Source: a bacterium
Lineage (GTDB): Bacteria; RBG-13-66-14
DNA: 40,650 bases
Direction of reading: 5' to 3'
Assembly (NCBI GenBank): GCA_035528375.1
Contig: DATKYS010000038.1
Location: 1-40,650, forward strand
The position numbers and the translations under genes were made by a program. This document shows, in pieces, positions 16,038 through 33,014 of the stretch (position 1 is its first letter; every line of letters starts with the position of its first letter). Under the pieces are notes generated by a model. It was not told the origin of the DNA. It saw only the letters and a list, made by a program, of their open reading frames with translations, and searched no databases.

Positions 16038-16066
16038 TTGCCCCCCGACGGGCTTTGGTCTATATT
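16038..16066 (+). promoter_or_regulatory. Promoter for the paired secreted-protein genes
   Basis: TTGCCC (16038-16043), 17 bases, TATATT (16061-16066). Transcription would start near 16073, about 15 bases before the GTG at 16088, so the leader is very short but still holds GAGGT. Confidence 0.6.
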
Positions 16067-16087
16067 AACCGACGAGGTATCCCCACC

Positions 16088-16849
16088 GTGATTCAAAGAA
16101 CGGCACTTCTGTTTCTTTTCCTCTGCGCCGCAGCGCCGGCCGCCGAGGTGCTCGTCGCCGACTACGACGGGGACATGGAGTTCAGCGATCCCGACGACGG
16201 TCAACTCGTGGGCTCCGAGTACGCCGTCACGGAGGCCCTCGACGCCAACGGCCGGGACTACGACCTGGTCACCGACATCCCCGACGACCTCGCCGGCTAC
16301 GACATCGTCTTCGTCCTTCTGGGGACCTTCCCCGCCTCCCGACCCCTGGACTACTCCGATCAGCAGGTTTTGCTGGATTTCGGCCGGTGGCGGGGGCTGT
16401 ACGTGGAGGGCGGCGACGTGGGCTACGACTACTCCCCGGCGCCGCTCTGGGACCTCTTCGGCGCCCGCTACCTCTACGACGGCGAGTCCACCGAGGACGG
16501 GAACGTCGAAACGGTGAACGGCGTCTCCGGCACGCTCGTCGCCGGGCTCGCCTTCGACTGTCCCGGGTATCAGATCGAGCCCAGCGACAACTACCTGGAC
16601 GAAATCACCAACGACGGCGGCACGGTGGTCTTCACCAGCACACCCATGGGTCACGTCTCCAACGCCAGGACGGTGGCCTACGCGGGCGACGGCCACCACC
16701 GAGCCGTGGTCTCCACGTTCCTCTTCGGCGCCCTGGCCGACGGGTCCTCCACCAAGGAGGAGCTGATGGGTCGCCTGCTGGACTACCTCGGCGAGACGAT
16801 GCCCGTCGAGGAGACGAGCTGGGGCGATATTAAGGCCTGTTACCGTTAA
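16088..16849 (+). CDS. Secreted protein with amidotransferase-like fold and SWGxIKA C-terminus
   Basis: The 253-residue product begins with a signal peptide (VIQRTALLFLFLCAAAPAA). The mature part opens with the strand VLVADYDGD. EALDANGRDYDLVTDIPDDLAGYDIVFVLLG, in two pieces, and a GLYVEGGD strand follow. This order resembles class I glutamine-amidotransferase/ThuA-like Rossmann folds in secreted proteins, but no catalytic Cys is seen at the usual elbow. The end, PVEETSWGDIKACYR, matches the ends of the next gene's product and of the protein at 4068. The GTG was chosen for its signal peptide and the GAGGT nine bases ahead. It is cotranscribed with the next gene, 15 bases downstream. Confidence 0.7.
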   Translation: MIQRTALLFLFLCAAAPAAEVLVADYDGDMEFSDPDDGQLVGSEYAVTEALDANGRDYDLVTDIPDDLAGYDIVFVLLGTFPASRPLDYSDQQVLLDFGRWRGLYVEGGDVGYDYSPAPLWDLFGARYLYDGESTEDGNVETVNGVSGTLVAGLAFDCPGYQIEPSDNYLDEITNDGGTVVFTSTPMGHVSNARTVAYAGDGHHRAVVSTFLFGALADGSSTKEELMGRLLDYLGETMPVEETSWGDIKACYR

Positions 16850-16864: not shown

Positions 16865-17779
16865 ATGCGTAAATCGGTGACGTTATATCTGGCGCTGGCG
16901 GCGGCGGCCTCGGCGCTCTCGCCCGCCCAATCCCCGACCGCCCACGTCGGTCCGGCGCCGACTTCCGCGGGCGTGCTCCTGGTGAGCGACCAGGAGGACG
17001 GCGTCTCGGAACCGCTCTACTTCGACGACTACTACTCGGACGCCATTGACGACATCTTCGGGCACCCTTACTACTACAACATTCTATACCACACCCGGGA
17101 CGTCAGGGTCGAAGACCTTACGGGTCACGGCGCCGTCGTCTGGTACACCGGCATCTCGGGAGGCACCTCCTCCGCCGACGGGCCGGCGGGTCACATCACC
17201 CTCACCGAGGACGAGGAAGACGCCATCATCCAGTACCTGGAGACGACGCCGGACGGCGAGTGCCGGGGGGTCTGGCTCTCCGGGATGTACATCGCCTGGA
17301 ACTGCGTCGCCGCGGTTCTGACGGAAGGTCAGCTCTACTCCGAACTCTTCAACAACTACGTCGGCCTTTCCTACCCGACGAGCAATTTCAGGAATCCGAT
17401 CCACGTGGACAGCTCCTGGATCGGGGGTTCCGGCTCCTCGTCGCCACCGCTGTCAGGCGTCCCCTACTCCATCTGGTGGGCCTCGGGCGATTACAACTAC
17501 CCCGACATGCTGGACACCTCGGGCTCCGCCTGGTCCGCCCTCACCTGGCAGGACTCGGGTGGCGCGACGCACCACTCCAGCGTCATCGCCAATCAGGGCG
17601 CGAGCCCCTACGGCGGCACGTGGTACATCGTCCTCTCCGCCCTACCCCTGGAGAGCATCGGCACCGAATCCTCCGGCGAGGAGCGCAGCTACATGATGTC
17701 GGACATCCTCTCCTGGTTCCAGGTCACCGTGGGCGTCGAGGAATCGAGCTGGGGTTCGATCAAGGCCTCCTTCAACTGA
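16865..17779 (+). CDS. Secreted protein with SWGxIKA C-terminus, sister of the previous gene
   Basis: The 304-residue product has a signal peptide (MRKSVTLYLALAAAASALSPAQS) and a strong ribosome site (GGGGGGAGG next to the ATG). AGVLLVSDQEDG, then DLTGHGAVVWYTGISGG, LTEDEEDAIIQYLE and CRGVWLSGMYIAWN follow the same strand-helix order as the previous product, so a common amidotransferase-like fold is likely. The C-terminus GVEESSWGSIKASFN repeats the shared motif. No catalytic residues can be assigned. Together the two genes form a short operon for exported proteins. Confidence 0.7.
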   Translation: MRKSVTLYLALAAAASALSPAQSPTAHVGPAPTSAGVLLVSDQEDGVSEPLYFDDYYSDAIDDIFGHPYYYNILYHTRDVRVEDLTGHGAVVWYTGISGGTSSADGPAGHITLTEDEEDAIIQYLETTPDGECRGVWLSGMYIAWNCVAAVLTEGQLYSELFNNYVGLSYPTSNFRNPIHVDSSWIGGSGSSSPPLSGVPYSIWWASGDYNYPDMLDTSGSAWSALTWQDSGGATHHSSVIANQGASPYGGTWYIVLSALPLESIGTESSGEERSYMMSDILSWFQVTVGVEESSWGSIKASFN

Positions 17780-18210: not shown

Positions 18211-18238
18211 AAAAAGAAGCCCCAGGCGGGGGCTTTTT
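18211..18238 (-). terminator. Bidirectional terminator of the membrane-cassette operon
   Basis: AAAAAGAAGCCCC, a short loop, GGGGGCTTTTT: a 6-bp GC-rich stem (AGCCCC/GGGGCT) flanked by an A-run on the left and a T-run on the right. It lies 24 bases past the stop of the last cassette gene and can end transcription from both sides. Confidence 0.85.
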
Positions 18239-18261: not shown

Positions 18262-19155
18262 TCAGAGCGTCTTCCGTTTCCGGTTCCGGGAGACGAAGTA
18301 GGCGAGGTTGCCCAACAGGATGAGCACCACGATGACCACGTGAACCACCATCTGGGCGACCATCCCGCGCATGGCGGCGGCGGGCCGGCCTAACATCTTC
18401 TCGTACTCCGCCGCCCCCTTCAGGCCGCCGAGCATCCCCACGATCTGCCGCGTCTGGAGGTAGGCGTAGTAGTTGGGCGCGTAAACCGCCGTACAGCCGA
18501 CCAACACCGGGATGCCGAAGGGTACGCCCGCGTAGGAAATCCACGCCTCGGGCATCGCCGTCCCGGAAACCGCCGAGACCAGCCCCATGTCGTCGAAGGA
18601 GTGTACACCGGCCATCATCGGGTAGTCGTCCAGGGGGGTGCCGTAGTAGTCGCTGGGGTAGGCCTTGCGTATCTCCTCGCCCAACTGGAGGATGACGGCG
18701 TCGGCGCCGGCGCGGAACCCGAGATATATCCAGTCCTCGCCCATCGTTATCCGGCGTTCCTCGCCCTTGGCCGCCAGCTCGGCGTTGAGCTGGTCCTGGG
18801 TCTCGAGCATTATCCGCTCGCCGATGGACGGCCCCTCGACCAGGAGCGTCATGGCGATGACCCGGATGCCCCGAGTGAGGGCGTGTCGGACCGTAGCGAC
18901 CAGGATGGGCTCCAGCTCGGGCAGCGTACTAGGGCCCAGGTCCATGGAGACCAGGATGGTCGAACCGGGCGGCAGGCGGTCAATGGCGTTGTAGTAGAGG
19001 GCCACCGGCGAGGTGATCGAGACGTCTACGCTGAAGGGACCGACCAGGGAGACTATTACGCCGATGGCGACCAGGAGGAAGATCCAGCGGCGGTCCAGCC
19101 CCAGGAGGAAATCCATGGCCCGGCCCGAGAGGTCCGCGATTTTTCGAAAGACCAC
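18262..19155 (-). CDS. Two-TM cassette protein, paralog 4 of 4
   Basis: The 297-residue product has unknown function. TM1 (about residues 25-42) follows the conserved LDRRWIFLL. A domain of about 220 residues comes next and TM2 spans 266-288, ending in SRNRKRK. Conserved blocks in order: STILVSMDLGPSTLPELEP (65-83), GEDWIYLGFRAG (139-150), GEEIRKAYPSDYYG (159-172), HSFDDMG (185-191), GIPVLVGCTAVYAPNYYAY (214-232) and LGGLKGAAEYEK (242-253). Alternating strands and helices suggest a Rossmann-like domain. Positive residues before TM1 and after TM2 predict that it faces outward. The GTG start lies 3 bases after the previous stop, so translation is coupled. It is the final gene before the terminator. 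Confidence 0.75.
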   Translation of the reverse strand: MVFRKIADLSGRAMDFLLGLDRRWIFLLVAIGVIVSLVGPFSVDVSITSPVALYYNAIDRLPPGSTILVSMDLGPSTLPELEPILVATVRHALTRGIRVIAMTLLVEGPSIGERIMLETQDQLNAELAAKGEERRITMGEDWIYLGFRAGADAVILQLGEEIRKAYPSDYYGTPLDDYPMMAGVHSFDDMGLVSAVSGTAMPEAWISYAGVPFGIPVLVGCTAVYAPNYYAYLQTRQIVGMLGGLKGAAEYEKMLGRPAAAMRGMVAQMVVHVVIVVLILLGNLAYFVSRNRKRKTL

Positions 19156-19158
19156 GGC

Positions 19159-20049
19159 TCAGCCCCCGACCTGTTGCCGGGCCTGGCGCTTCTTGACGAA
19201 CCGGGTACCGTAGTAGGCGAGGTTGCCTAAAAAGATAAGAATCACGATCAGCACGTGAACCACCATCTGGGCCACCATCCCCCGTGTGGCGTCGGCGGGC
19301 CGGGAGATGAGCTTTTCGTACTCGGCGGCCCCCTTGAGACCGCCCAGTATACCCTCCATCTGGCCCGTCTGCATGTAGGCGTAGAACTCGGGCGCGCTCA
19401 CCGCCGTGCAGCCCACGAGAACAGGAATCCCGAAGGGGGTGTGGGCGTAGGAAACCCAATCCACGGGCAGGGAGGTCCCGGAGACCGTGACGAGCAACCC
19501 CATGTCGGTGAAGGAATGTATGTCGCCCATCAGGGGGTAGTTGTCCAGGGGAACTCCGTAGAAGTCGCTGGGGTAGGCCCGCCGGATCTCGTCGCCGAGT
19601 TGGAGGATGACCGCCTCGTAACCCGACCTAAAACCCAGATAAACCCAGTCCACGCCCATCGTTATCCGTCTATCCTCGCCGGTCTTGGCGTATATTCCGT
19701 TCAGATCGTCCTGGGCCTCGAGCATCAACCGCTCGCCGATGGAGGTCCCCTCGGGCAGAAGGGTCATCCCGATGACGTTGACCCCCCGCCTCAGGGCGTG
19801 GCGGATGGTGGCGGCCATGATCGGCTCCAGCTCCGGCAGCGTACTGGGGTCCAGGTCCATCGAGACGAGGATGGTGGAGCCGGGCGGCAGATCGTTGATG
19901 GCCTTGTAGTAACGGGCGACCGGGGCGGTGATGGACACTTCCACGGAGAAGGGGCCCAGAAGGGAAACGATCACCCCCACCGCGATCAGGAGGTAGATCC
20001 AGCGGCGGTCGAGCTTGGTCAGCCCGTCGAACACGCCTCCCCAGGACAT
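19159..20049 (-). CDS. Two-TM cassette protein, paralog 3 of 4
   Basis: The 296-residue product is closest to paralog 4. It shares LDRRWIYLLIAVGVIVSLLG (TM1), STILVSMDLDPSTLPELEP, DWVYLGFRSG, PSDFYG, GIPVLVGCTAVSAPEFYAY and LGGLKGAAEYEKL, then TM2 (HVLIVILIFLGNLAYY) and a basic tail. The central HSFDDMG block is HSFTDMG here. The ATG lies 3 bases after the stop of paralog 2, with GGAG about 12 bases upstream. The family was not recognised. The tight spacing and common architecture mean the four products are made together and may form one hetero-oligomer. Confidence 0.75.
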   Translation of the reverse strand: MSWGGVFDGLTKLDRRWIYLLIAVGVIVSLLGPFSVEVSITAPVARYYKAINDLPPGSTILVSMDLDPSTLPELEPIMAATIRHALRRGVNVIGMTLLPEGTSIGERLMLEAQDDLNGIYAKTGEDRRITMGVDWVYLGFRSGYEAVILQLGDEIRRAYPSDFYGVPLDNYPLMGDIHSFTDMGLLVTVSGTSLPVDWVSYAHTPFGIPVLVGCTAVSAPEFYAYMQTGQMEGILGGLKGAAEYEKLISRPADATRGMVAQMVVHVLIVILIFLGNLAYYGTRFVKKRQARQQVGG

Positions 20050-20052
20050 GTC

Positions 20053-20967
20053 TCAGGCTCCGAGGTTGTCGGTCTCCGTGGGACCGGTTGAAGACGGGGG
20101 ACGGCGAGAGCTCATGAACCGGTCGGCGAAGAAGGCGAGGTTGCCCAGGACGATGGCCAGGACTAGAAGAGCGTGCACCCCGAGCTGGGCCACCATCCCC
20201 CGGCCGGCGGAACCCGGGTTGTTCGTTATCCGCTCGTACTCGGCGGCCCCTTTGAGCCCCCCCAGAAGCCCGGCCATCTGCCCGGTCTGCAGGTAGGCGT
20301 AGTACTGGGGAGCGCTCACCGCGGTGCAACCCACCAGGATCGGGACGCCGTAGGTCACGCCGGCGTACTCGACCCACGCCTCCGGGGTGGACGACCATGA
20401 GATATCAATGGCCGCCGCCATGTCGTCGTAGTTGTGCGTGTCCTGGAAGAGGGGCATCGTTTCCAGGGGCGTCCCGTAGAAATCGTTGGGGAAGACGCTC
20501 CTTATCTCCTCGCCCAGGGAGATGATGACGGAGCTGAACCCCGCCCGGAAACCCAGGAGCGCGTAGTCCACCCCTGACTTGAGCTGCTCTCCGCGCCCGG
20601 TCTGGAGCACCCGGTCGTTTATCTCGCCCGTCACCTGGTTCAACAGGCGCTCGGAGATGGCGACCCCCTCCATCTGGAGGGAGATGAGGATGACCGGCTG
20701 ACCCCGGCTGAAGGCGTGCCGGAGGATGGTGACTATCATGGGCTCCAGCTCGGGCAGTCCGGCCGGAGGGGTGTCCACGGCCACCAGGAGTGGCTTGGAG
20801 GGATCGCTCTGGTGGATGACGCGGTAGAAGTCGTTTACCGGCTTGGTGATCCTCACCCCGATCCCGAAGGGTCCGACCAGGGCGAAAACGACGACGGCCG
20901 CCTCCAGGAGAAACATCCAGCGGCGATCGAGGTTCAGGAAACGCTGGAGGAGGGAGGGCCTGGTCAT
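20053..20967 (-). CDS. Two-TM cassette protein, paralog 2 of 4 (most diverged)
   Basis: The 304-residue product keeps the frame of the family but is the most divergent copy. LDRRWMFLL leads TM1; the first block reads PLLVAVDTPPAGLPELEP instead of ILVSMDLGPSTLPELEP; YALLGFRAG, PNDFYG, HNYDDM, GVPILVGCTAVSAPQYYAY and LGGLKGAAEYER follow. TM2 (HALLVLAIVLGNLAFF) precedes a Ser/Pro-rich tail unlike the basic tails of the others. No good ribosome site precedes the ATG at 20967. It comes after a 321-base gene-free stretch, yet no convincing promoter was found there. It may be a specialised subunit. Confidence 0.72.
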   Translation of the reverse strand: MTRPSLLQRFLNLDRRWMFLLEAAVVVFALVGPFGIGVRITKPVNDFYRVIHQSDPSKPLLVAVDTPPAGLPELEPMIVTILRHAFSRGQPVILISLQMEGVAISERLLNQVTGEINDRVLQTGRGEQLKSGVDYALLGFRAGFSSVIISLGEEIRSVFPNDFYGTPLETMPLFQDTHNYDDMAAAIDISWSSTPEAWVEYAGVTYGVPILVGCTAVSAPQYYAYLQTGQMAGLLGGLKGAAEYERITNNPGSAGRGMVAQLGVHALLVLAIVLGNLAFFADRFMSSRRPPSSTGPTETDNLGA

Positions 20968-21288
20968 CGGGCCGCCGGCAATTGTTAAAAAGGGCCGTCG
21001 GGGGCCGGTAGGTCAAAGCTTCCGGTCTTCCCGACTACCCTTAGGAGAACGGGTTTAGCGATTTTCCCCAACTACACTTCGTCTGAAAATCCCCCGAGGC
21101 ATAAGTCCTGGTCATGTAAGACCGAGAGTCCGGGCAAACCATCGTCATGCCGTCAGCTAATCGGAGTTACGCCCCAGGTAAATCTGTTTTTGAACCCCGA
21201 TGATTCAGCGGTCCGCAGGACCGGATGAACATCATGCGCCCCGTCCGCCCGCGGCGGCCCGCAGGGAACTCGTCCTACGGGACCCACC
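20968..21288. other. Gene-free stretch inside the cassette
   Basis: No gene or good promoter is seen in 321 bases. It holds a small perfect hairpin (CGGTCC GCA GGACCG, near 21211-21225) and a degraded family A palindrome near 21251 (GGCGGCCCGCAGGG followed by CCTACGGG). The minus strand has a TTGACC near 21011-21016 but no -10 at a fitting distance. Confidence 0.5.
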
Positions 21289-22080
21289 CTACTTGGGTAG
21301 GCCGAGCCAGTCGAAGAGGAGGAAGTGGACACGGCCGATCAGGAGCGAGACGCGGGCCATGACGGTGTAGCCGAAGCTGGCGCCGAAGCCGATCATCAGG
21401 AACCAGATACCGACGCGCGCGGCGCCGCCCAGGACCCCCTTGTGCTCCAGCGAGAAGAAGAAGTAGGCAAGTGTGCACAGCGTGCCGACGATGAAGAGCG
21501 GCCCCGAGATGGCGTCGAAGAAGGTGCTTATCCCCGGTGCGGCGAAGAAATCCCGCCAGGAGTCTATGGAGAAAAGCGGCACCACCAGGGCACCGTGATC
21601 CTGGACGAAGGTGCCGCGGAGCTGGGAGATGACGCGGGCCTGAAGGGCGTTCGGGATGGCGATACCGGAGTTGGCGCCCAGGATGAAGGCCAGGGAGTAC
21701 CGGCTGATCCACGAGATTTTCGGGATGAAGCGGGTGAAGAGCAGTAAACCCAGGATGACGGGGATCAGAAGGAGGACGAGGGCCACGACGGGGGTGAAGT
21801 CCTCCAGGATCGGCGGGAGGGAAGTCATGCCCTGGGTATCGGCGTAGGCCTGGAACTCGGCCGGGGTGAGGGAGAGTTTGTTGAGCGTGACGCCGAAGGG
21901 GATGAGGAAGTCCTCGACGATCACGTTGTGGTACAGCACGGCGGTGAAGTACCCCGCGCCGAGCCCCACCATGACGTGCTCCGCGAGCTTGTAAAAGGGG
22001 TTGTCCTTGTAGAGGAATGAGTAGACGAACAGGGTGAAGATTGCCGCCACCCAGATCCAGATATCAAGGGAGATGTTCAA
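21289..22080 (-). CDS. Polytopic membrane protein of the cassette
   Basis: The 263-residue product has about six predicted TM helices (near residues 5-24, 31-52, 96-116, 126-146, 193-215 and 225-250). A conspicuous motif, LYKDNPFYKLAEHVMVGL, joins TM1 and TM2; the Lys, Asp, Glu and His in or near the membrane are unusual and could be functional. A soluble loop of about 40 residues follows TM2. The TTG at 22080 has GGGGTGG just upstream, and no better start exists downstream close by. I recall no characterised relative. It may form the channel or scaffold part of the cassette, which is an inference from topology only. Confidence 0.65.
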   Translation of the reverse strand: MNISLDIWIWVAAIFTLFVYSFLYKDNPFYKLAEHVMVGLGAGYFTAVLYHNVIVEDFLIPFGVTLNKLSLTPAEFQAYADTQGMTSLPPILEDFTPVVALVLLLIPVILGLLLFTRFIPKISWISRYSLAFILGANSGIAIPNALQARVISQLRGTFVQDHGALVVPLFSIDSWRDFFAAPGISTFFDAISGPLFIVGTLCTLAYFFFSLEHKGVLGGAARVGIWFLMIGFGASFGYTVMARVSLLIGRVHFLLFDWLGLPK

Positions 22081-22339
22081 CGTCCACCCCTTTATGTTTC
22101 ATCTTTCGGGCGTACCGTCGCGGACATACCGCCGCGCCGCCGCACATGCCCTACTTCACCGTCTCGGAACGCCGCGCAAATACACTGGTCGTAACTCCGC
22201 TTCGCTCTTTAACCGCTTCCCCGTCGCAGATTCACGGCCTCAACGTCGCGGATGTCCGGTTTCCCCGTCTCTCGCCGCCCTCACAGGTTTACAGCTTCGT
22301 CATCGCAGATTGACGATTCTGCCGCCGCAGTTTTACGGG
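22081..22339. repeat. Gene-free stretch with a short recurring motif
   Basis: On the minus strand the pattern TCYGCGAYG recurs four times (ATCTGCGATGAC, CATCCGCGACGTT, AATCTGCGACGGGG, TGTCCGCGACGGTA) at uneven spacing. No gene, clear promoter or terminator was found. Confidence 0.4.
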
Positions 22340-23224
22340 TTACGACTTCGTCGCGGTTTTATCGCGATCCTTTTTACCGCGGGTGACGAAATAGGCGATG
22401 TTGCCCAAGAGGATGAAGGCCACGATGACGATGTGGATCCACTGCTGGGCGTTCATGCCCTTGGTCGCGGTCCCATCGTAGCTCAGGAGCCTCTCGTACT
22501 CGGCGGCGCCCTTGAGCCCGCCCAAAAGTCCCGCCATCTGTCCGGTCTGCGTGTAGGCGTAGTACTGGGGGGCACTCACGGCGGTGACACCGACGAGAAT
22601 GGGGATACCGTAGGGGGCGCCGGCGTACGAGACCCAGGCCTCGGGTAGCGCCGTCCCGGAAATATCCGCGACCATCCCCATGTCGTCAAAGGAGTGAACG
22701 CCCTCCATCATCGGGTAGTCGTCGAGGGAAACGCCGTAATAGTCGCTGGGGTACGCCTGACGTATCTCCTCGCCGAACTGAAGAATGACCGCGCTGTATC
22801 CGGCACGGAAGCCCAGATAGATCCAGTCCTCGCCCATGACCATCCTGCGTTCGTCCCCCGCCGCCTCGTACTTGGCGTTAAGCTCGTCGGTCACCTGGAG
22901 CATGATCCGCTCGGCGATGGAGGGACCGTCGGGCAGGAGGGTCATGGCGATGACTTTCAAGCCGTGACTGAGGGCGTGATAGACCGTGGCCTTGAGCATC
23001 GGTTCCAGCTCGGGCAGCGTGCTCGGCCCCAGGTCCATCGAGACCAGGATCACCGATCCCTCCGAGGCGCCCTCGATCACGTCGAAAAAGTTCTGCACCG
23101 GGGTGGTGATCCCGATGGAGAGCTTGATGGGTAGGACGAGTGCCGCGATCACCACTATCCCGATGATCAGGAAAATCCACCGTCGGTCTATAACCAGCAG
23201 CTTCTCGAACAGGGTTTTTTTCAT
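22340..23224 (-). CDS. Two-TM cassette protein, paralog 1 of 4
   Basis: The 294-residue product shares every block with the others: IDRRWIFLI before TM1, VILVSMDLGPSTLPELEP, GEDWIYLGFRAG, PSDYYG, HSFDDMG, GIPILVGVTAVSAPQYYAY and LGGLKGAAEYER, then TM2 (IHIVIVAFILLGNIAYF) and a Lys-rich tail. The Cys of the VGCTAV block is Val here, so this Cys is not essential for the family. The ATG at 23224 was chosen over the GTG at 23236 because AGGTGAG lies seven bases before the former. It is the first of the four copies in transcription order. Confidence 0.75.
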   Translation of the reverse strand: MKKTLFEKLLVIDRRWIFLIIGIVVIAALVLPIKLSIGITTPVQNFFDVIEGASEGSVILVSMDLGPSTLPELEPMLKATVYHALSHGLKVIAMTLLPDGPSIAERIMLQVTDELNAKYEAAGDERRMVMGEDWIYLGFRAGYSAVILQFGEEIRQAYPSDYYGVSLDDYPMMEGVHSFDDMGMVADISGTALPEAWVSYAGAPYGIPILVGVTAVSAPQYYAYTQTGQMAGLLGGLKGAAEYERLLSYDGTATKGMNAQQWIHIVIVAFILLGNIAYFVTRGKKDRDKTATKS

Positions 23225-23316
23225 CGTTTGGCTCACCTTTGCCGGTTTGTACCGGGGGGCCGGTATTCCCGGGGGCCCTTTTCTATCCCCGCGGACCCCT
23301 CGACCGGGAAGCCCGC

Positions 23317-23925
23317 TTACTCACCACCGAGATAGCTCCGTTCGATGCCGAGCACGATCTTCAACGCCGTGGCGATGATCCCCAGGCCGACGCCGATGAC
23401 GATACCGCGCTGCGCGGCGCCGTTGGGAATCTCGAGAATCCACTCCGTGATGTTGGACAACCAGTCCACGTCAATGACCCGCCCCAGCATGATGATCACC
23501 GCGGCGCCCAAGAGGAGCGTCGCCTCCTTACTGCGGGCGCGGAATGCCCGGAAGGCGGCCGAGGCGATGAAGAAGGCCAGGAGGCTGAACATCGTCGCCT
23601 CCATCGGCGCCTGGAGATAATCGAAGAGCTGGCGGAAGAGCGTCCCCTCGTCAATGCCCCCGAATAGCCCCACGAGGGCCATGACCAGAAAGCTGGCGAT
23701 GGCTACGGCGTTGAAGGCCCAGCCGGGGACCTGCCGGATCATCTTATTGCCGTGGTTGCGCAAGAAACTGGCGATGCCGAGACCGATGGCGAAGGCGGAG
23801 AGCAGCCGGAGCCAGGCCAGCATCTGCTCGCGCAAGCCCTGAATCACCGGGTCCATGATGACGTAGGAGAGAGCCCCAAAGAGACCGGCGACCAGAGCAA
23901 TCACAAGCGGGATTTGTCTGCGCAC
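23317..23925 (-). CDS. Polytopic membrane protein of the cassette
   Basis: The 202-residue product has five or six hydrophobic helices. A loop before the third or fourth reads GGIDEGTLFRQLFDYLQAPM and carries several acidic residues. FFIASAAFRAFRARSKEA marks a positively charged inner loop. The GTG at 23925 has AAGGAG five bases ahead. It follows the fibronectin-III gene by 34 bases. The family was not recognised. With the 21289 gene it supplies the integral-membrane part of the set. Confidence 0.65.
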   Translation of the reverse strand: MRRQIPLVIALVAGLFGALSYVIMDPVIQGLREQMLAWLRLLSAFAIGLGIASFLRNHGNKMIRQVPGWAFNAVAIASFLVMALVGLFGGIDEGTLFRQLFDYLQAPMEATMFSLLAFFIASAAFRAFRARSKEATLLLGAAVIIMLGRVIDVDWLSNITEWILEIPNGAAQRGIVIGVGLGIIATALKIVLGIERSYLGGE

Positions 23926-23959
23926 TTATCTCCTTTTGCCGTATCGAAAGTAACGGGCT

Positions 23960-25207
23960 CTACCCGACGATGAACAGATCGGAGAACCAGGTGGTGAAGA
24001 AACTGGTTATGACCCCGATGACGATGAGCACGCCGATGATGAACTTGGCCCAGTCCTGCCCCTTCAGCCCGCCCAGAAGAAGCGGCTCGCGGCTCATGTA
24101 AGCGGACGCCGCGTAGAGCTCCTCGCCTATGATGCAGTAGTCGCAGGCGGTGATGAAGAACGGTATCTGCACGACGGCGTCGGTGCCGGCTATCTGAATC
24201 GCCCCGGTGGAAGCGCCGGTCTCGGCCAGAATCAGCGACTCGGCGAAGAACATCCCCATGTAGAAGTTCGTCGCCGGTTTCTCGCGCAGCATGATGCCGT
24301 TGATCGCCGCGGCGTAGGCGAACTGGGACTGGGTGACGAAGTAGATGTCGTTGGGGTTGTAAGCGTCGGGACGGCCCGCGTCGAGATAGGCTTCCTTGAC
24401 CACCTCGCGCTCGACGGCCATGACGATGGGATCGTAGCACGGGACGATGAGCCGGATCTCGTAGATGGCAGACTTGCGGGCGACCTGGCCCAGGATGTTC
24501 ACCGCGGCGATGGTGGCCACATCGGCCATAGTCGAGAGCCCCGAGACGTAGAGGATGGGCTTGCCCATCTCGGTGGCGCGCCCCAGAGCCTCCTCGACGG
24601 CGTCCAGGCCGGCGATGCGCCGGATGAATAGATCCTTCCCCTTTCGGGCGCTGTAGATGAAGTAAACCAAAAGCAACGTGATCACCACGATGCCGATGAG
24701 GGTGTTCCAGCGCTGGGAGTGGAAGAAGTGTGACCGCGCCTCGGCGGGTTCGGATGGACGGGAGTAGCTGACGGCGACGCCGTTGCTGGCTGCCACCATG
24801 TAGACGTAGGTGTGTTCGGGCTCGCAGGAGGAATCGGTATAGGACGACGTACCGGCCTCGACCTCGTCTATCACGGCGAAGTCCGTCTGGTTTCCCTCGC
24901 CCGACTCGGGATCGGGAACCTCCTTGCGCTGAATTATGTAAGAGACGACGTTGTTCTGCCCGCCGCCGTCGTCGAGGGAGCGCGTCCAGCTCAAGGCGAG
25001 GCGTTCACCGGTGTCGTCGGGCACGTCCTCGGCCCGGACCAGGAGCGGCGGTGCCGAGGGGAGGTCCACCAGGGGGTAGAGGTACTCCGTAGACTGCGCC
25101 GACGCGATCAGGGGAGTGAGGAGAAGCACCGGTAGGACGACGTATATGCGCCCGAAGGGAGATTTCAGGCATCCCATCCCTTTAGCGCGGGGTGAACCGC
25201 CGGCCAT
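23960..25207 (-). CDS. Fibronectin-III membrane protein with LGGLKG domain (DUF6754-like)
   Basis: The 415-residue product is the cassette's first gene. An N-terminal signal sequence (hydrophobic about 20-37, ASAQ cleavage site) comes first. A fibronectin-III-like domain (about 50-158: LALSWTRSLDD, VVSYIIQRKEV, HTYVYMVAASNGVAVS) follows, then TM 168-186 with a basic ARKGKDLFIRR end, a Rossmann-like domain (200-388) and a final TM (389-407). The domain holds KPILYVSGLSTMADVATI, IRLIVPCYDP, DIYFVTQSQ, PFFITACDYCIIGEELYAA and LLLGGLKGQDWAK. It recalls what I remember as DUF6754, not checked. The last two blocks parallel the four cassette paralogs. AAAGGAG stands four bases before the ATG. Function unknown. 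Confidence 0.75.
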   Translation of the reverse strand: MAGGSPRAKGMGCLKSPFGRIYVVLPVLLLTPLIASAQSTEYLYPLVDLPSAPPLLVRAEDVPDDTGERLALSWTRSLDDGGGQNNVVSYIIQRKEVPDPESGEGNQTDFAVIDEVEAGTSSYTDSSCEPEHTYVYMVAASNGVAVSYSRPSEPAEARSHFFHSQRWNTLIGIVVITLLLVYFIYSARKGKDLFIRRIAGLDAVEEALGRATEMGKPILYVSGLSTMADVATIAAVNILGQVARKSAIYEIRLIVPCYDPIVMAVEREVVKEAYLDAGRPDAYNPNDIYFVTQSQFAYAAAINGIMLREKPATNFYMGMFFAESLILAETGASTGAIQIAGTDAVVQIPFFITACDYCIIGEELYAASAYMSREPLLLGGLKGQDWAKFIIGVLIVIGVITSFFTTWFSDLFIVG

Positions 25208-25255
25208 AGCGCTCCTTTGGAGATGGTTATCGCAAACGTGCTTGATAACGGTCCG

Positions 25256-25284
25256 AGTTTACCAAAGCCTCTGTGGAGTGTCAA
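25256..25284 (-). promoter_or_regulatory. Near-consensus promoter of the membrane cassette
   Basis: On the minus strand TTGACA (25279-25284), 17 bases, TAAACT (25256-25261). This is the best match to the sigma-70 consensus in the window. Transcription should begin near 25249, giving a leader of about 42 bases. The promoter sits after the stop of the upstream glycosyltransferase gene, so the cassette is separately controlled. Confidence 0.75.
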
Positions 25285-25298
25285 CGCCCGTTCATCGT

Positions 25299-26951
25299 TC
25301 ACATCCCCTTGGGTTTAATGGGGGATACAACCCCGGCCCCGGCGGCGAGACACCGCTCGACCGCCTCCCCTTTGAGGGCGTAAAAAGTGAAGTACAGGTC
25401 CGGCGCAGTCTGAACAAGCATCGGCTGGTACGACTCGGCGAAACGCGGATCGGAGAGCACGGACCGGTTGGGGTAGGAGAGCCGCTCGAAGGTGTACCCC
25501 GGGACGGCGTACCCACCCTCGAGCCACACCGCCACGTCATCGGAGTTGCTGGAGTTGGGATTGATGACGACCACCAGGGGTTTTTCGCGGAAAATCTGGT
25601 CCACGTCGCAGATGAAGTGCCCCATCATCCCCTCCTCGCTCCTGGACCCCTCCAGGGCCGCCCGGGCGTTGCACAGACCGGCGAAATCGAGGTTGGGGAG
25701 CCCCGACGCGTAGGGCAGGGCGCCCGCAGAACCACTCGCGATCAGAGTCCCCGCCGGCAACGCCTCCTTCAGGAATTCACCGGCGATAATCTTCCGGTTG
25801 TTGTGCAAGAGATCGCCGGGCGACGACCAGCGATCCAACGTCGGCTGAATCCCGGCGACGACGCCCCACAGGGCCACCAGACCGGCGAAAAGTCCGGGGA
25901 CGAACCGCCATTTGGAACCCAGCTCCCGTAGCTCCCCCAGGCCCAGCGTCGCCCACAGGGCGAGAATCGCCGCGTAGGGCGCCATGAACCGGAAATGCCC
26001 CATGTAATCCCCGCCGGAGTAGACGATGAATACGGCACACCCGGCCAGCATCAGGGCCAGAAGGCTCGCGTCGGCCCGCTTGAAGCGGCGGACCAGCGCG
26101 AAGATCCCGGCGATTCCGAGCACCAGGGGCGGTCGAAGAACAACCCAGGAGAAGAGGTAACCAAGGCCGCTCTTGAGCTGGTAGAGCGACCCCCCGGCCT
26201 TGACGACGGCGGGTAGAGACCACCACAAACCGTAGTAGAGCCGGCGGAAGACGAGCTGCGCCGCCACCAGGCCCAGGGCGGGGATGAGATCGCGCCAGTC
26301 GGACCCGGTGGGGATTTTCCGCCACCGGCAGTAGACCTGATGAACGGCGAAGATGAGGATGAAGCCGAAGCCCTCGGGGCGCGTCAGCGCGGCCAGGCCG
26401 AGGAAAAAGCCGGTCCACGGGAACCGACCCGGTCTTTCACGGAGGTGGAAAAAGACGGCGCAGGCCAGCAGAAGCCCGAAGAAGACCGTTTCCAGCCCGG
26501 ATCCGGCCCAGTAAACCACGGAGAAGGACGCGGCCACGAAACCCGGCGCCGCCAGGGGAAGCCAGCGCCGGTCCGGGAAGAACCTCTTCGCCAGACGCCA
26601 GACGACGTAGAGGAGCATCGCGCCGGAAAGGATACCCAGCGCAGGGGCGGCATGCTCCGGTGGGATGCCCGCCAGGGCGAAGGGGGCCAGGAGGAGGATC
26701 CAGAGGAGATTGGAGTAGCCCTCGTCGTGGACGCCGGGGTTGTAGACCAGCCCCTGACCTTGGACGAGGTTCTGCACGTAGCGGAAGGAGATGAAGGCGT
26801 CTTCGTTTAAAAAGAAGCAGGATACGGCCCAGGCTGACCACAGGACCACGATGGCGAGGAAGACCAGGTGGGGTACGAGGTCCCGAGTCGGTCCGCGTTC
26901 AAGCTCGGTCATGTCCGGCCCGCCGCGAGGTCGTTTCCGCTTCGCGTCCAT
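25299..26951 (-). CDS. GT-C type membrane glycosyltransferase (arabinofuranosyl/mannosyltransferase-like)
   Basis: The 550-residue polytopic protein has about ten TM helices and a soluble C-terminal domain. The first outer loop reads NEDAFISFRYVQNLVQGQG, the acidic catalytic loop of GT-C enzymes that use polyprenyl-phosphate sugars. VYNPGVHDEGYSNLLW, YWAGSGLETVFFG and ALTRPEGF follow, as in AftB-like proteins. It would transfer a sugar on the outer face of the cytoplasmic membrane. No clear ribosome site precedes the ATG at 26951, and an internal ATG (26912) is an alternative. The downstream cassette has its own promoter. Confidence 0.75.
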   Translation of the reverse strand: MDAKRKRPRGGPDMTELERGPTRDLVPHLVFLAIVVLWSAWAVSCFFLNEDAFISFRYVQNLVQGQGLVYNPGVHDEGYSNLLWILLLAPFALAGIPPEHAAPALGILSGAMLLYVVWRLAKRFFPDRRWLPLAAPGFVAASFSVVYWAGSGLETVFFGLLLACAVFFHLRERPGRFPWTGFFLGLAALTRPEGFGFILIFAVHQVYCRWRKIPTGSDWRDLIPALGLVAAQLVFRRLYYGLWWSLPAVVKAGGSLYQLKSGLGYLFSWVVLRPPLVLGIAGIFALVRRFKRADASLLALMLAGCAVFIVYSGGDYMGHFRFMAPYAAILALWATLGLGELRELGSKWRFVPGLFAGLVALWGVVAGIQPTLDRWSSPGDLLHNNRKIIAGEFLKEALPAGTLIASGSAGALPYASGLPNLDFAGLCNARAALEGSRSEEGMMGHFICDVDQIFREKPLVVVINPNSSNSDDVAVWLEGGYAVPGYTFERLSYPNRSVLSDPRFAESYQPMLVQTAPDLYFTFYALKGEAVERCLAAGAGVVSPIKPKGM

Positions 26952-27018: not shown

Positions 27019-27969
27019 TCAGAGCAGGCCCAGCTTCCCGAGCTCCGCCCGTGTGCTCTCCAGACCCGCCGGGTCGCCGACGCCCAGAACCCGGATTCCG
27101 GGGGCGCAGCGTTTCAACAGGCCCGCGAGCACGTTCCCGTTGCCGAACTCCACAGCGAGCTCTACGCCCCGCTCCTCCAGGTATTGCGCGTCGGCCAGCC
27201 AGAGCACCGGCTCACAGACTTGGCGAGCCAGTGTTTGAGGAATTTCGTCCATGTCAGACACCGGCTTGCCGGTGACATTCGTAGCAACGGGAAAATCGGG
27301 GCGATTAAACGTGTATTTCGCCAACTCACCCGTGAGCGCGATAGCGGCGTCTTTCACCAGCGAGGTGTGGAAGGGGCCGCTCACGTTCAGAATGACCGCC
27401 CGCTTGGCCCCCGCCCCCTTGGCCAGCTCGACGAAGCGCTCGAGGCCCCGAACCTCGCCGCCGACGACGATCTGGTTCGGGGCGTTGACCGTGGCCAGCT
27501 CCACCCGGCCCGCCCCCCGAGCCTCGGGGATGATTTTACCGACCTCGTCCTCGTCCAGGCCGATGACGGCGGCCAGGGTGCCCGGGTTTTTGGCCGAGGC
27601 GTCGCGGATGAGCTCGCCGCGTCGGCGGACGAGGCGCAGGCCGTCCTCGAAGGAGACGGCCCCGGCGGCGGCGTAGGCTGAATATTCGCCCAGGGAGTGG
27701 CCGGCGGCCACGGTCCAGTCCAGGTCTCCGGCCACTTCCCGGAAACAGGCCCAGGCCGCGTAACTCACCAGGTAGATGGCCGGCTGCGTGTTCTCGGTGG
27801 CGGTCAGCTCCTCGTCCGGCCCCTCGAAGCAGAGCTTTTTTATCGAATAGCCCAGCGCGTCGTCCGCGCGTTCGAAGAGCTCCCGCGCCAGGGGGAAGGC
27901 GTCGAAGAGAGCCCGGCCCATCCCCACGGTCTGCGAGCCCTGTCCCGGAAACACGGCGGCGAGCCTCAT
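27019..27969 (-). CDS. fabD: Malonyl-CoA:ACP transacylase
   Basis: The 316-residue enzyme loads malonyl groups onto acyl carrier protein for fatty acid synthesis. FPGQGSQ opens the protein. The nucleophile Ser92 lies in GHSLGEYSA, the catalytic His201 in GPFHTSLV, and QVCEPVLW plus the VEFGNGNVLAGLLKR segment close the fold. The ATG at 27969 has AAGGA four bases upstream; an earlier frame start at 27999 lacks this. It follows a small outer-membrane-protein gene by 69 bases and probably shares its promoter at 28682. FabD is separated from fabH, its usual partner, by that gene and a terminator. Confidence 0.95.
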   Translation of the reverse strand: MRLAAVFPGQGSQTVGMGRALFDAFPLARELFERADDALGYSIKKLCFEGPDEELTATENTQPAIYLVSYAAWACFREVAGDLDWTVAAGHSLGEYSAYAAAGAVSFEDGLRLVRRRGELIRDASAKNPGTLAAVIGLDEDEVGKIIPEARGAGRVELATVNAPNQIVVGGEVRGLERFVELAKGAGAKRAVILNVSGPFHTSLVKDAAIALTGELAKYTFNRPDFPVATNVTGKPVSDMDEIPQTLARQVCEPVLWLADAQYLEERGVELAVEFGNGNVLAGLLKRCAPGIRVLGVGDPAGLESTRAELGKLGLL

Positions 27970-28038
27970 CCCGTCCTTTCGTTTTATGAAAGACCTCATC
28001 GCCGGCCGTCGGACCGGGCGGGGGCAAGGTGCGTTTTA

Positions 28039-28638
28039 CTACTTCAGAGAGAACACGACGCCGGCATGGATGTCCAGATAGGAGGCCCCGGCGTTGTCCC
28101 CCCACTCCACCCGCTCGCTCTCTTCGATGTCAATCGTCTGAAACTTCCCGGTGAAGTGGTAGCCCACCGCGAGGTTGACGAACATGATGGAGTTCAGCCT
28201 GTACCCGCAGCCCAGCTCGGCGTGAATACCGTGGGCCGTGAGAAAACCGGTCCCGGTGGTGTCGGTGATGGAGGCGTCGAGGGTGTAACCCACCGCGGGC
28301 CACAGCCGCCACTTCTCGCCCAAATTCACCTCGGTGAAGAGGTCGAGGGAGAAGAGCTGGTGCGACATCGGGACCGTGTTATCCTCGGATACCTGCCACT
28401 CGAAGGGGGAGAACTCCAGCAAGGCCCTGGCCCCGACGATGCCGGCGATGGTCAGCCCGAGGTCCAGCCGGACCAGGAAGCCCGGGTCGTCGAGCCCTCC
28501 GGGCACGTCCCGGACGCTGGGAACCAATAGACCGGTCCCCAGCCCGATGACGAAGCCGAGGACCTGTTCCTCTTCTTGAGCCCCGATGGGTGTCCACAGC
28601 GCGGCGACCAGAAGAGTCATCAGAACGATTCTGAACAC
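28039..28638 (-). CDS. Small outer-membrane beta-barrel protein
   Basis: The 199-residue product has a signal peptide (MFRIVLMTLLVAALWTPIGA) and a mature part of repeated amphipathic strands (GFVIGLGTGLLVPS, FLVRLDLGLTIAG, VNLAVGYHFTG, SYLDIHAGVVFSLK), typical of eight-stranded outer-membrane barrels. The end has no terminal aromatic residue except FSLK, a minor deviation. GTG start with GGGGG upstream. It is the first gene of the unit leading into fabD. The role is unknown. Confidence 0.65.
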   Translation of the reverse strand: MFRIVLMTLLVAALWTPIGAQEEEQVLGFVIGLGTGLLVPSVRDVPGGLDDPGFLVRLDLGLTIAGIVGARALLEFSPFEWQVSEDNTVPMSHQLFSLDLFTEVNLGEKWRLWPAVGYTLDASITDTTGTGFLTAHGIHAELGCGYRLNSIMFVNLAVGYHFTGKFQTIDIEESERVEWGDNAGASYLDIHAGVVFSLK

Positions 28639-28681
28639 GTTAAGGGCCCCCTTCGATGTGATAGCGGGCGGCTAGGAGTCC

Positions 28682-28710
28682 AGCTTACCAGTTACGCCCC
28701 ACCGGGTCAA
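28682..28710 (-). promoter_or_regulatory. Promoter for the barrel gene and fabD
   Basis: On the minus strand TTGACC (28705-28710), 17 bases, TAAGCT (28682-28687), about 44 bases from the GTG at 28638. Confidence 0.65.
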
Positions 28711-28775
28711 TCGGTGTGAGGGCGGACCCAATCGAAGGAGACAAGGGGTTTGAATCCCTTGCCGGTCGGCGGAGG

Positions 28776-28802
28776 TTTTAAAAAGCCCCGGCGGACCGGG
28801 GC
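28776..28802 (-). terminator. Rho-independent terminator after fabH
   Basis: On the minus strand GCCCCGG, loop TCCG, CCGGGGC, then TTTTT. The 7-bp perfect GC stem (28785-28791 with 28796-28802) and T-run lie about 25 bases past the fabH stop. Confidence 0.9.
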
Positions 28803-28827
28803 CGATGGATGGCAAAAACGACGGGAA

Positions 28828-29820
28828 TCAGATGCACCAGCGCAGGAGGTTGGCGGCCCAGGCGAAACCCGCCCCGAAGGTGGTGGTGCAGACCAGGTCC
28901 CCCTTCTTGAGCCGACCCGTGCGGTACGCCTCCTCGAAACAGATGGGGATGGTGGCGGCCGAGGTGTTCGCCTGCCGCTGGATGTTCACGAAGGCGCGCT
29001 CGGGGGGGATGTCGAGCCTTTTGCGTACCGCCTCGATGATCCGCAGGTTGGCCTGATGGGGAACGAGGAGGTCCACGTCCTCCTCGGTGTAGCCGGCCTT
29101 CTGGATCACCGACTGGGCGCCCTCGACCATGGCGCGCACGGCGCCTTTGAACACGTCCTGACCGGACATGTGGACGTAATGCATCCGCTTGTCCACGGTC
29201 TCGTGTGTCGCGGGGTTGCGGGAACCGCCGCCGGGCTGGTAGAGCTGCATGCCGCTGCCGCCGTCGGCCTTGATGAAGTGGGCCAGGATGCCCTCCCCCT
29301 CGGCGACCGGCGAGACGACCACCGCTCCGGCGCCGTCGCCGAAGAGTACGCAGGTGTCGCGGTCCGTCCAGTCCGTGATCCGGGTCAAAGCTTCCACGCC
29401 CACCACCATGACGTTCGTCAGAATCCCCGCGCGGATGTAGGCGTCCGCGACGGAGAGAGCCGAGGCGAAACCGGCGCAACCGGCGCTCAGATCAAAACCG
29501 CCGGCGTTTCTCGCCCCCAGGCGGTCCTGTACGAGGCAGGCGGTGGCGGGGAACGCGTAATCCGGGGTCACCGTCGCCACGATGACGGCGTCCAGGGTCA
29601 GGGGGTCCAGGCCGGACATCTCCAGGGCGGCCTGGGCGGCGGCGAAGGCCATGTCGCTGGAGGCTTCGTCATCGCCGATGATGTGCCGCTCCCACATGCC
29701 GGTCCGCGTCTTTATCCACTCGTCCGAGGTGTCCACCATCTTCTCGAGATCGAAGTTGTTGAGCACCTTCTCGGGGAGGTAGGACCCCACTCCGACGATA
29801 CCCGCGCTACGCTGCATCAT
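28828..29820 (-). CDS. fabH: Beta-ketoacyl-ACP synthase III
   Basis: The 330-residue thiolase-fold enzyme starts fatty acid synthesis by condensing acetyl-CoA with malonyl-ACP. The catalytic triad is complete: Cys115 in DLSAGCAGF, His255 in VPHQANLRII, Asn285 in QRQANTSAAT. The N-terminus GIVGVGSYLPEKVLNN and WIKTRTGMWERH are standard. Two ATGs abut (29820 and 29817); GGAG is 2 bases before the first and 5 before the second, so the second may be the real start. It ends the ackA-rpmF-plsX unit and is followed by a strong terminator. Confidence 0.95.
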   Translation of the reverse strand: MMQRSAGIVGVGSYLPEKVLNNFDLEKMVDTSDEWIKTRTGMWERHIIGDDEASSDMAFAAAQAALEMSGLDPLTLDAVIVATVTPDYAFPATACLVQDRLGARNAGGFDLSAGCAGFASALSVADAYIRAGILTNVMVVGVEALTRITDWTDRDTCVLFGDGAGAVVVSPVAEGEGILAHFIKADGGSGMQLYQPGGGSRNPATHETVDKRMHYVHMSGQDVFKGAVRAMVEGAQSVIQKAGYTEEDVDLLVPHQANLRIIEAVRKRLDIPPERAFVNIQRQANTSAATIPICFEEAYRTGRLKKGDLVCTTTFGAGFAWAANLLRWCI

Positions 29821-29896
29821 GACTCCAATCGTCGCCTGAAAGGCAGGGATTCGGTGGTTGACACGGCGATGCCCGTTCAGAACGTGAACGGGCGGC

Positions 29897-31600
29897 TCAC
29901 CCGTTCTTGGCCAATCTCACGTTACCCAAATATAAAACGTCGAGCCCGCAAGAGTAAAAAGTGCGGATCGCGTCGGTGGGTGTGCAGACGATGGCTTCGC
30001 CGTTCAGGTTGAAGCTGGTGTTGAGGATGATGGGCACGCCGGTCTTTTCTTCGAAATGAGAGATGAGCTTATAGTACAGGGGATTCGTCTCCCGGTCCAC
30101 GGTCTGGAGGCGGCCGGTGCCGTCCACGTGCACGACGGCCGGAACTTCCGCCGTCTTTTCGGGCCGGAAATTGAGCACCCGCTCCATGAAAGGCACCCTG
30201 TCCTTCGGCCTGCACTGGAAATAATCCGCCACCCTCTCGGCGATGATCGAGGGCGCGAAGGGGCGGAAGCTTTCCCGGTACTTGACGGCCAGGTTGACCC
30301 GGTCTTTGGTCCCGGCGTCCCGGGGATCGGCCAGAATCGAACGGTTCCCCAAGGCGCGCTGCCCGAACTCCATCCGTCCCTGGAACCACCCCACGAGCCT
30401 GCCTCGGACTAAATCCTCCGCCGCCATGACCGCCGGATCACCGACCACCTCGTGAGGAAGGTTGTATTTCTTGACCGTGTCCAGGCATTCGGAGTCGGTG
30501 AAGCCGGGCCCCCAGAAATTGTGCTTCATCGCGCCTGCCGGCCTCTTCCCGGTCCGGACGGACTCCAGGTACAAAGCGGCCCCGACGCTGGTGCCGGAAT
30601 CATCCGGACAGCCGGTAATGAAGCTCTCTTTGAAGGGGGACCGATCGTCGAGCTTGCCGTTGATAACACTGTTCATGAAGCAGCCGCCGGAAACCACAAG
30701 GTTGGAGGCGCCGGTGCGGCGGTGCAACGCCCCGAGCATGGAGGACACGCATTCCTCGAACGACGTCTGCAGAGCCGCCGCGATTTTCTCGTGGCGCTCG
30801 GTGAGCTCTTCACCGTAACTGCGCGGTTGGCCCAGGAGCTCGACCAGCTTCGGGGAGTACATCTTCGGTTCGGTGTAGTTATACCAGCCGAAGTAACTCA
30901 GATCGACTTCGAAGCCGCCGTCCTCGTAAAGGGTCAGTAACTTGCGGAGCTCGTCGGTGTACTCGTTCTCAGCCGGGGCGAAGGACGAAAGGGCCATCAC
31001 CTTCCACTCGTCGGAATCGGGCCGAAAGCCGAGGAACTGAGTTATCGCCCCATAAAAAAGGCCCAGCGAGTGCGGGAAACACACCTCATCGAGGAAGGTC
31101 ACGTCCACGCCCTTTACCCGGGCCATGAGCTGGGTCATCCTCTCGCCCCGGCCGTCGAGAATCAGGACGGCGCAGTCATCGAAGGGCGAAAGGAAGACGG
31201 CGTTCCCGATATGGGCCAGGTAGTGGTCCACGAAGGTTACCGGCGGCGCGTCCCGGGTAAGGTTCCTCCAACCCGGCAGAGGGTGCGCCGGCTGTCCGAG
31301 GAGGGCCTTAATCCTCGCCGGCACCGAAACGGCGTGTTCCGATCTCCACCGCCTCGTGTAGAATCCGGCCGGCATCGTCTCCATCTCGATGACCGGATTC
31401 CACGCGACCGCAATCTCGTCGAGCTCTCCGATCCGCAACCCCCCCATCTCGAGGCACTTCTCGACGGCCAGGGTCGGGAATACGTTGCTCCGTTTCCGCC
31501 TGTCCAGCCTCTCCTCAGCCATGGCCGCCACGACTTCACCGTCAACCACCAGGGCGGCGGAGCAAATCCAGACGTCGTGGCAGATGCCGAGAATCTTCAT
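29897..31600 (-). CDS. NodU/TobZ-family carbamoyltransferase
   Basis: The 567-residue product has the two-part architecture of O-carbamoyltransferases, which make carbamoyl adenylate from carbamoyl phosphate and ATP and pass the carbamoyl group to a hydroxyl of a sugar or natural product. The N-terminal Kae1-like domain shows ILGICHDVWICSAALVVDG, metal-binding VDHYLAHIGNAV, LILDGRGE and a VVSGGCFMNSV strand. The C-terminal part has GWFQGRMEFGQRALGNRSIL and IILNTSFNLNGE. It lies between plsX and fabH, which is unusual, with 12 bases to plsX and 76 to fabH. The acceptor is unknown; a lipid or glycan head group would suit its neighbours. Confidence 0.88.
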   Translation of the reverse strand: MKILGICHDVWICSAALVVDGEVVAAMAEERLDRRKRSNVFPTLAVEKCLEMGGLRIGELDEIAVAWNPVIEMETMPAGFYTRRWRSEHAVSVPARIKALLGQPAHPLPGWRNLTRDAPPVTFVDHYLAHIGNAVFLSPFDDCAVLILDGRGERMTQLMARVKGVDVTFLDEVCFPHSLGLFYGAITQFLGFRPDSDEWKVMALSSFAPAENEYTDELRKLLTLYEDGGFEVDLSYFGWYNYTEPKMYSPKLVELLGQPRSYGEELTERHEKIAAALQTSFEECVSSMLGALHRRTGASNLVVSGGCFMNSVINGKLDDRSPFKESFITGCPDDSGTSVGAALYLESVRTGKRPAGAMKHNFWGPGFTDSECLDTVKKYNLPHEVVGDPAVMAAEDLVRGRLVGWFQGRMEFGQRALGNRSILADPRDAGTKDRVNLAVKYRESFRPFAPSIIAERVADYFQCRPKDRVPFMERVLNFRPEKTAEVPAVVHVDGTGRLQTVDRETNPLYYKLISHFEEKTGVPIILNTSFNLNGEAIVCTPTDAIRTFYSCGLDVLYLGNVRLAKNG

Positions 31601-31612
31601 TCGGTTTCCCCC

Positions 31613-32653: not shown

Positions 32654-32748
32654 GGATTTCCCTCGGGAGTATATGCAAGCGGCGCGGTTCGCCCCGGCCC
32701 CGCGCCTCCAAGGGTCGAATCAACCCGCGCACCGCCGCGTCGCCGGCT

Positions 32749-32943
32749 TTACCCCTCTTGCTTCTCGGGGATGATGATCTGGCGTCCCTTGTAATGGCCG
32801 CAGGAGGGGCAGATCCGGTGGGGGAGTTTGGCCTCTCCGCAGTTCGGACAGGCGGTGAGGGTGGGAACCCGGAGGCTCGCCACCCAGTGAGCCCGGCGCA
32901 TGTCGCGCTTGGAGCGCGATTTCCTTCTCTTCGGTACGGCCAT
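32749..32943 (-). CDS. rpmF: Ribosomal protein L32
   Basis: The 64-residue protein has the usual N-terminus MAVPKRRKSRSKRDMRRAH and two Cys pairs (CPNC and CPSC) for zinc, so it is the zinc-binding form. GAGGAG lies seven bases before the ATG. It stands directly ahead of plsX as in many bacteria. The DUF177 gene often found before rpmF is missing; only 71 bases separate it from ackA. Confidence 0.96.
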   Translation of the reverse strand: MAVPKRRKSRSKRDMRRAHWVASLRVPTLTACPNCGEAKLPHRICPSCGHYKGRQIIIPEKQEG

Positions 32944-33014
32944 GTCAAGCTCCTCGTATCAACAACGGCTTTCCGCAACGGCGGAGCCGTATATCTGCGA
33001 CGGCGCAGCCAAAA

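Follow-up and report, generated by a model that had tools for sequence, protein, structure and literature searches.

The locus at 25207-18262 raises the question of whether a run of membrane protein genes without an annotated function encodes a single envelope complex and, if so, which of the genes contribute to it. It lies in the window, the whole 40,650-nucleotide stretch of DNA that was analysed (contig C38), from a 2.6 Mb genome that is rated 100% complete and has the Coatesbacteria as its nearest named relatives. All seven open reading frames, on the minus strand, were found where the first-pass annotation had placed them, and they belong to four families named A, B, P (four copies) and D. 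The features, in order of transcription, are as follows.

25256-25284, minus strand: sigma-70-type promoter with an extended -10, upstream of A (rarity; footprint conservation)
23960-25207, minus strand: A, 415 aa, full member of DUF6754 (PF20539, E 9e-119, 395.8 bits against a gathering cut-off of 27; AF2 model with pLDDT 85.8; fn3 domain by Foldseek; topology from hydropathy)
23317-23925, minus strand: B, 202 aa, polytopic with about six TM helices (family alignment, hydropathy)
22340-23236, minus strand: P copy 1, the module copy (AF2 model with pLDDT 95.8; alignment; topology)
21289-22080, minus strand: D, 263 aa, polytopic with about six TM helices (alignment, hydropathy)
about 20985-21042, minus strand: terminator- or attenuator-like hairpin between D and the extra P genes (RNA fold)
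20053-20967, minus strand: P copy 2, lineage-specific duplicate, 47% identity with copy 1 (tree)
19159-20049, minus strand: P copy 3, lineage-specific duplicate, 56% identity with copy 1 (tree)
18262-19155, minus strand: P copy 4, lineage-specific duplicate, 63% identity with copy 1 (tree)
18211-18238, minus strand: intrinsic terminator 3' of the last P gene (stem 18235-18217 and T run)

The earlier statement that nothing else of known function lies within the unit holds for the profile libraries searched, as DUF6754 in A is the only domain above the Pfam cut-off in the seven ORFs and no NCBIfam model is matched above its cut-off. A Pfam near-miss of B to DUF2818 (E 0.003) is below the cut-off, and the NCBIfam near-misses of the locus proteins, also under the cut-off, were not accepted. 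The two gaps between genes, given previously as 259 and 321 bases, are present and measure 262 and 324 nt when the stop codon is counted in the gap. For P copy 1, the ATG at 23224 is the more likely start than the GTG at 23236, because the predicted ribosome site AAAGGTGAG overlaps that GTG.

Several other genes in the window were noted. A polytopic GT87-like gene (25299-26951, minus strand) is directly upstream of A, a position that it holds in several genomes from this family (cluster c6). Upstream of the locus, the segment at 27019-34241 (minus strand) includes fatty-acid synthesis genes (acyl transferase, KAS III, PlsX-type) with acetate kinase and carbamoyltransferase genes alongside. Three proteins, encoded at 16055-16849 and 16865-17779 on the plus strand and 4068-4814 on the minus strand, end in the tail V[EK]E[TS]SWG[DSQ]IKA, a candidate C-terminal sorting signal that is kept in a genome of the same genus (L116). 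A secreted protein encoded at 34493-35986 (minus strand) carries a C-terminal sorting domain of Por_Secre_tail/FlgD_ig type, which differs in type from the SWGxIKA tail.

A module was defined here as A, B, P and D adjacent on the same strand and in that order, and the window locus consists of one such module followed by three further P genes. Loci were located through A and then scanned with profiles of all four families, giving 99 complete A-B-P-D modules in 63 loci (three loci that occur twice were entered once), with one to three modules in tandem per locus. Almost no exceptions to the gene order were seen across the scanned loci. Judged by record names, the carriers are Coatesbacteria, Zixibacteria, Cloacimonadota, WOR-3/Stahlbacteria, Poribacteria, Planctomycetota and others, and nearly all of those outside the Coatesbacteria family of the window have a single P in each module. 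The seven genes proposed by the first-pass annotation thus occur together within one Coatesbacteria family only, and beyond it the conserved unit is the first four. Likewise, the four P genes are not equal paralogs. In the tree, the window's additional P genes and their counterparts from the same family group in one clade (17 rows, 100/100 support), and because of this grouping they are a local expansion, with one P being the module copy and three being copies from this family. Co-occurrence and order, the check that had been suggested for the seven genes, are therefore borne out over many phyla for A, B, P and D and not for the extra P genes. The locus had been noticed via its least general feature, the local P expansion.

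The transcription signals point the same way. TTGACA-N(16-18)-TAnnnT occurs 2 times in the window, where shuffled sequence would give 0.07 occurrences, and the near-consensus promoter described at 25256-25284 has a footprint that six related genomes keep, all sharing an invariant TTGACA and an invariant extended TGnTAnAnT. The terminator reported beyond the last P gene is present, as a hairpin with a T run. However, the second gap includes a further hairpin just before the extra P copies (dG -26.4 kcal/mol, z -2.95), which is followed by five T and speaks against a single transcript for the seven genes. Hairpins in the same gap occur in five relatives, followed by four T in three of them (G010, G009, L026) and stable but without a clear T run in G012 and L025, so that a T run is found in 4/6 genomes overall. 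Transcription would be expected to terminate or to be attenuated after D, and the three extra P copies may form a separate or attenuated unit.

One seven-gene transcript, with a hetero-oligomer of the four P paralogs and the fn3 protein as its product, was the version first put forward. It can draw on the second genome of the genus (L116), where the P copies pair 1:1 with those of the window in the same order, but with the extra copies confined to one family, preceded by a terminator-like hairpin, and absent from the modules of nearly all other carriers, this version is improbable. The idea of a co-encoded hetero-oligomeric envelope complex of proteins without a known function survives, though the four copies of P are not its basis. 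Such a complex more probably consists of A, B, P and D, with the MutL and c0 proteins described below as partners, than of four P paralogs.

DUF6754 was found in 98/98 Zixibacteria-group genomes, most of which have four to six copies, and in 74/76 Cloacimonadota-group genomes. In these two groups, where it is usually multicopy, the system probably belongs to the core of the envelope and may be essential. Among 14 Coatesbacteria genomes, P and D are present in all and A in 13, and in the fourteenth P starts right at a contig end. As the other loci were found through A, a set of 118 Planctomycetota-group genomes (the phylum of the genome with locus L049), many of which are without A, was chosen as a less biased test. 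Co-occurrence is strict here also: A was found in 29 of the 118, and the genomes with P are these 29 and one more with a marginal match (E 1e-3), counts that are uncorrected for genome relatedness.

Pairwise distances within modules were also correlated, with values of 0.79 for A-P, 0.76 for A-D and 0.74 for P-D, and of 0.56-0.79 over the six pairs of families. When partners were shuffled within the same locus, the mean correlations fell to 0.19-0.42 over the six pairs (0.32-0.42 for A-P, A-D and P-D), and the observed value was reached in 0/300 shuffles for any pair. The proteins hence co-evolve with their own module partners more than with neighbouring modules of the same locus. If A, B, P and D were unrelated neighbouring membrane genes with no common function, a reading for which the lack of annotation and nothing more can be cited, neither this module-wise co-evolution nor the co-occurrence and kept order would be expected; together these refute it, and it is given next to no weight. 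From the same comparisons, A, B, P and D are likely to form a single hetero-oligomeric inner-membrane complex.

Topologies were predicted from family-averaged hydropathy and the positive-inside rule. A includes a signal peptide or N-terminal hydrophobic helix, an outside fn3 domain, one TM helix, the DUF6754 domain and a C-terminal TM helix. The fibronectin-III domain noticed in the first-pass annotation is upheld by fold (titin Fn3 by Foldseek, E 3.6e-7, target TM 0.71) and by profile (E 1e-24), and Pfam makes no fn3 call. DUF6754 is predicted to be a cytoplasmic, Rossmann-like alpha/beta domain. P is predicted to be N-in and C-in, with a Rossmann-like domain in the periplasm between its two TM helices, the second of which has conserved polar residues (Q264, H268, N279). 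Invariant residues in D are D26, N27, E34, H213, R243 and R250.

The P fold had no match at E 1e-3 among 350,542 PDB chains (best 3.7e-3, with query TM <=0.32 among the matches listed), and Foldseek searches of P against PDB and viral libraries returned weak, generic matches only. A sequence search of PDB gave none for P, B or D, and A matched through fn3 only; the fold search with A used DUF6754 together with fn3, and fn3 matches fill its list. In the models of A and P alike, two TM helices enclose helices and six strands that follow one another in the same order, which may point to a shared fold, though helix/strand alternation is common. Homology between A and P is unproven by sequence (hhalign probability 2-4%), and a LGGLKG motif that MAFFT aligned in both was set aside as it occupies non-equivalent places in the predicted folds.

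The extracytoplasmic parts bear on whether this is a structural or organising complex, such as an adhesion anchor or scaffold, that performs no transport or catalysis and has its extracytoplasmic domains as the working end. The fn3 domain is consistent with this, as are the longer N-terminal part that brings A to some 900-1000 aa in Cloacimonadota and other groups, and the ability of B to carry an additional FG-GAP/VCBS-like repeat domain in its predicted periplasmic TM3-TM4 loop in some relatives. However, conservation of A peaks on the other side of the membrane, with 37/39 invariant residues in the cytoplasmic DUF6754 domain, and its extracytoplasmic part is variable or is missing altogether, as in the 259-264 aa A proteins of L093 and L094. 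A purely structural role is therefore rather unlikely.

A number of unusual forms were seen. L093 and L094 (G002:C4 and G001:C152), both from Coatesbacteria, are a divergent version of the module in which A, at about 260 aa, is too short for a signal peptide and fn3 part, and similar short A frames occur in some Planctomycetota-group genomes. The B proteins with the FG-GAP/VCBS-like insert at L073:10761-12533 and in its L074 counterpart are 580-591 aa, and a 644 aa P (L057:4075-6006) has a HEAT-like repeat array inside the soluble domain; the repeats were judged by eye in each case.

Many loci in many phyla carry further genes directly before A, either c0 alone or the set c4 (about 118 aa), c2/MutL (about 610 aa) and c0 (about 375 aa), in that order. 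In the window genome the three genes are on another contig (C36, L115), apart from the A-B-P-D locus, which is why MutL and c0 escaped the first-pass annotation. The MutL protein is an ASKHA protein and a full-length member of PF13941 (E 1e-129) that exceeds the 450-position model by at least 150 aa. NCBIfam does not place it in the GlmL, Or-4 or glmL families, as the L032 protein scores 238, 220 and 182 bits against cut-offs of 475, 600 and 204, respectively. c0 has a mean column identity of 65% over phyla and a weak RnfC_N barrel-sandwich match, and c4 matches no family. In one genome (G196), MutL and a c0-like sequence occupy one 839-codon open frame that looks like a natural fusion.

In the Planctomycetota-group set, a MutL-family protein is present in 27/29 genomes with A and in 1/89 without (Fisher p 3e-23 over 118 genomes, with genome relatedness not corrected for), plus one further weaker partial match. 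The corresponding counts for c0, also uncorrected for relatedness, are 25/29 and 1/89. Two genomes with A are without MutL and four are without c0; G238, with MutL and c0 but neither A nor P, is the sole clear exception in the other direction. MutL and c0 are thus probably the cytoplasmic arm of the A-B-P-D complex.

The other neighbours of the module vary by phylum (lipoyl ligase, ABC transporter, LspA, TPR protein, M23 peptidase, cytochrome c and others) and have no common theme. Genes for PPDK and a small basic protein (clusters c1 and c3) are downstream mainly in Zixibacteria loci, which looks like shared ancestry.

ASKHA proteins serve as reactivating chaperones of radical and B12 enzymes, and the partner MutL has as its closest named relatives GlmL and ornithine Or-4, which act as accessory proteins to B12 aminomutases. 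A-B-P-D could on this basis be a membrane-bound enzyme or an ion- or electron-transfer complex, with MutL its reactivating chaperone and c0 an accessory; the RnfC_N match of c0, the polar residues in the second TM helix of P and the charged conserved residues in D would fit. Against this, MutL falls below the GlmL and Or-4 cut-offs, the varying neighbours do not make up one metabolic pathway, and neither a cofactor motif nor a mutase gene nor a conserved set of cysteines turned up in the module. An enzymatic role is accordingly doubtful. Among those recurrent neighbours that were annotated, no B12-dependent mutase gene was seen. The strict co-occurrence with A also suggests a job for this MutL group, which has named relatives that act for B12 mutases.

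The preferred reading, held with a probability of roughly 55%, is an undescribed envelope system in which an A-B-P-D core is served by MutL and c0. B and D would form a polytopic core within the membrane, A would have its fn3 domain outside and its conserved DUF6754 domain inside, and P would place its Rossmann-like domain in the periplasm. ASKHA-fold MutL and barrel-sandwich c0 would most likely be a nucleotide-driven assembly or energising arm. In the simplest working model, a conformational signal or substrate would be taken up at DUF6754 on the cytoplasmic face and passed on to P on the periplasmic face. ATP hydrolysis by MutL, the energising or assembly role, and the trans-membrane force or substrate are attributed from knowledge of the families, and any cargo transported or moved is a guess. 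More tentatively, this may be a new class of envelope machine, with like-folded Rossmann domains of A (inside) and P (outside) on either side of a polytopic core and with a MutL-type actin-fold ATPase that drives it by way of the barrel-sandwich/KOW-like c0; if so, nearly every genome of at least the Zixibacteria, Cloacimonadota and Coatesbacteria would have the machine.

The A-B-P-D system itself is real, widespread and conserved and, within the literature searched, undescribed, as nothing relevant was found on DUF6754, on PF20539 or on MutL with Zixibacteria. Its small, defined set of six families makes the function open to direct testing.

Two types of known machine offer analogies. In the type IV pilus platform PilM-PilN-PilO, a cytoplasmic actin-fold protein serves membrane proteins with periplasmic alpha/beta domains, as proposed here for MutL and its partners. 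It differs in that A, B, P and D have no Pfam pilus match and P has two TM helices and no match to a solved structure. The proton-motive-force motors ExbBD, TolQR, MotAB and GldLM are small conserved complexes of polytopic and few-TM subunits, and A-B-P-D is likewise composed; no subunit of either type of machine is matched above cut-off by Pfam or NCBIfam. Two families connect the system directly to what is known. A is a full member of DUF6754/PF20539, for which Pfam gives a domain of unknown function but not the module, its partners or its distribution. The partner MutL is a full-length PF13941 member of the MutL/GlmL family (PF13941, TIGR01319), but, as far as its neighbours are annotated, its link is with A-B-P-D and not with a mutase.
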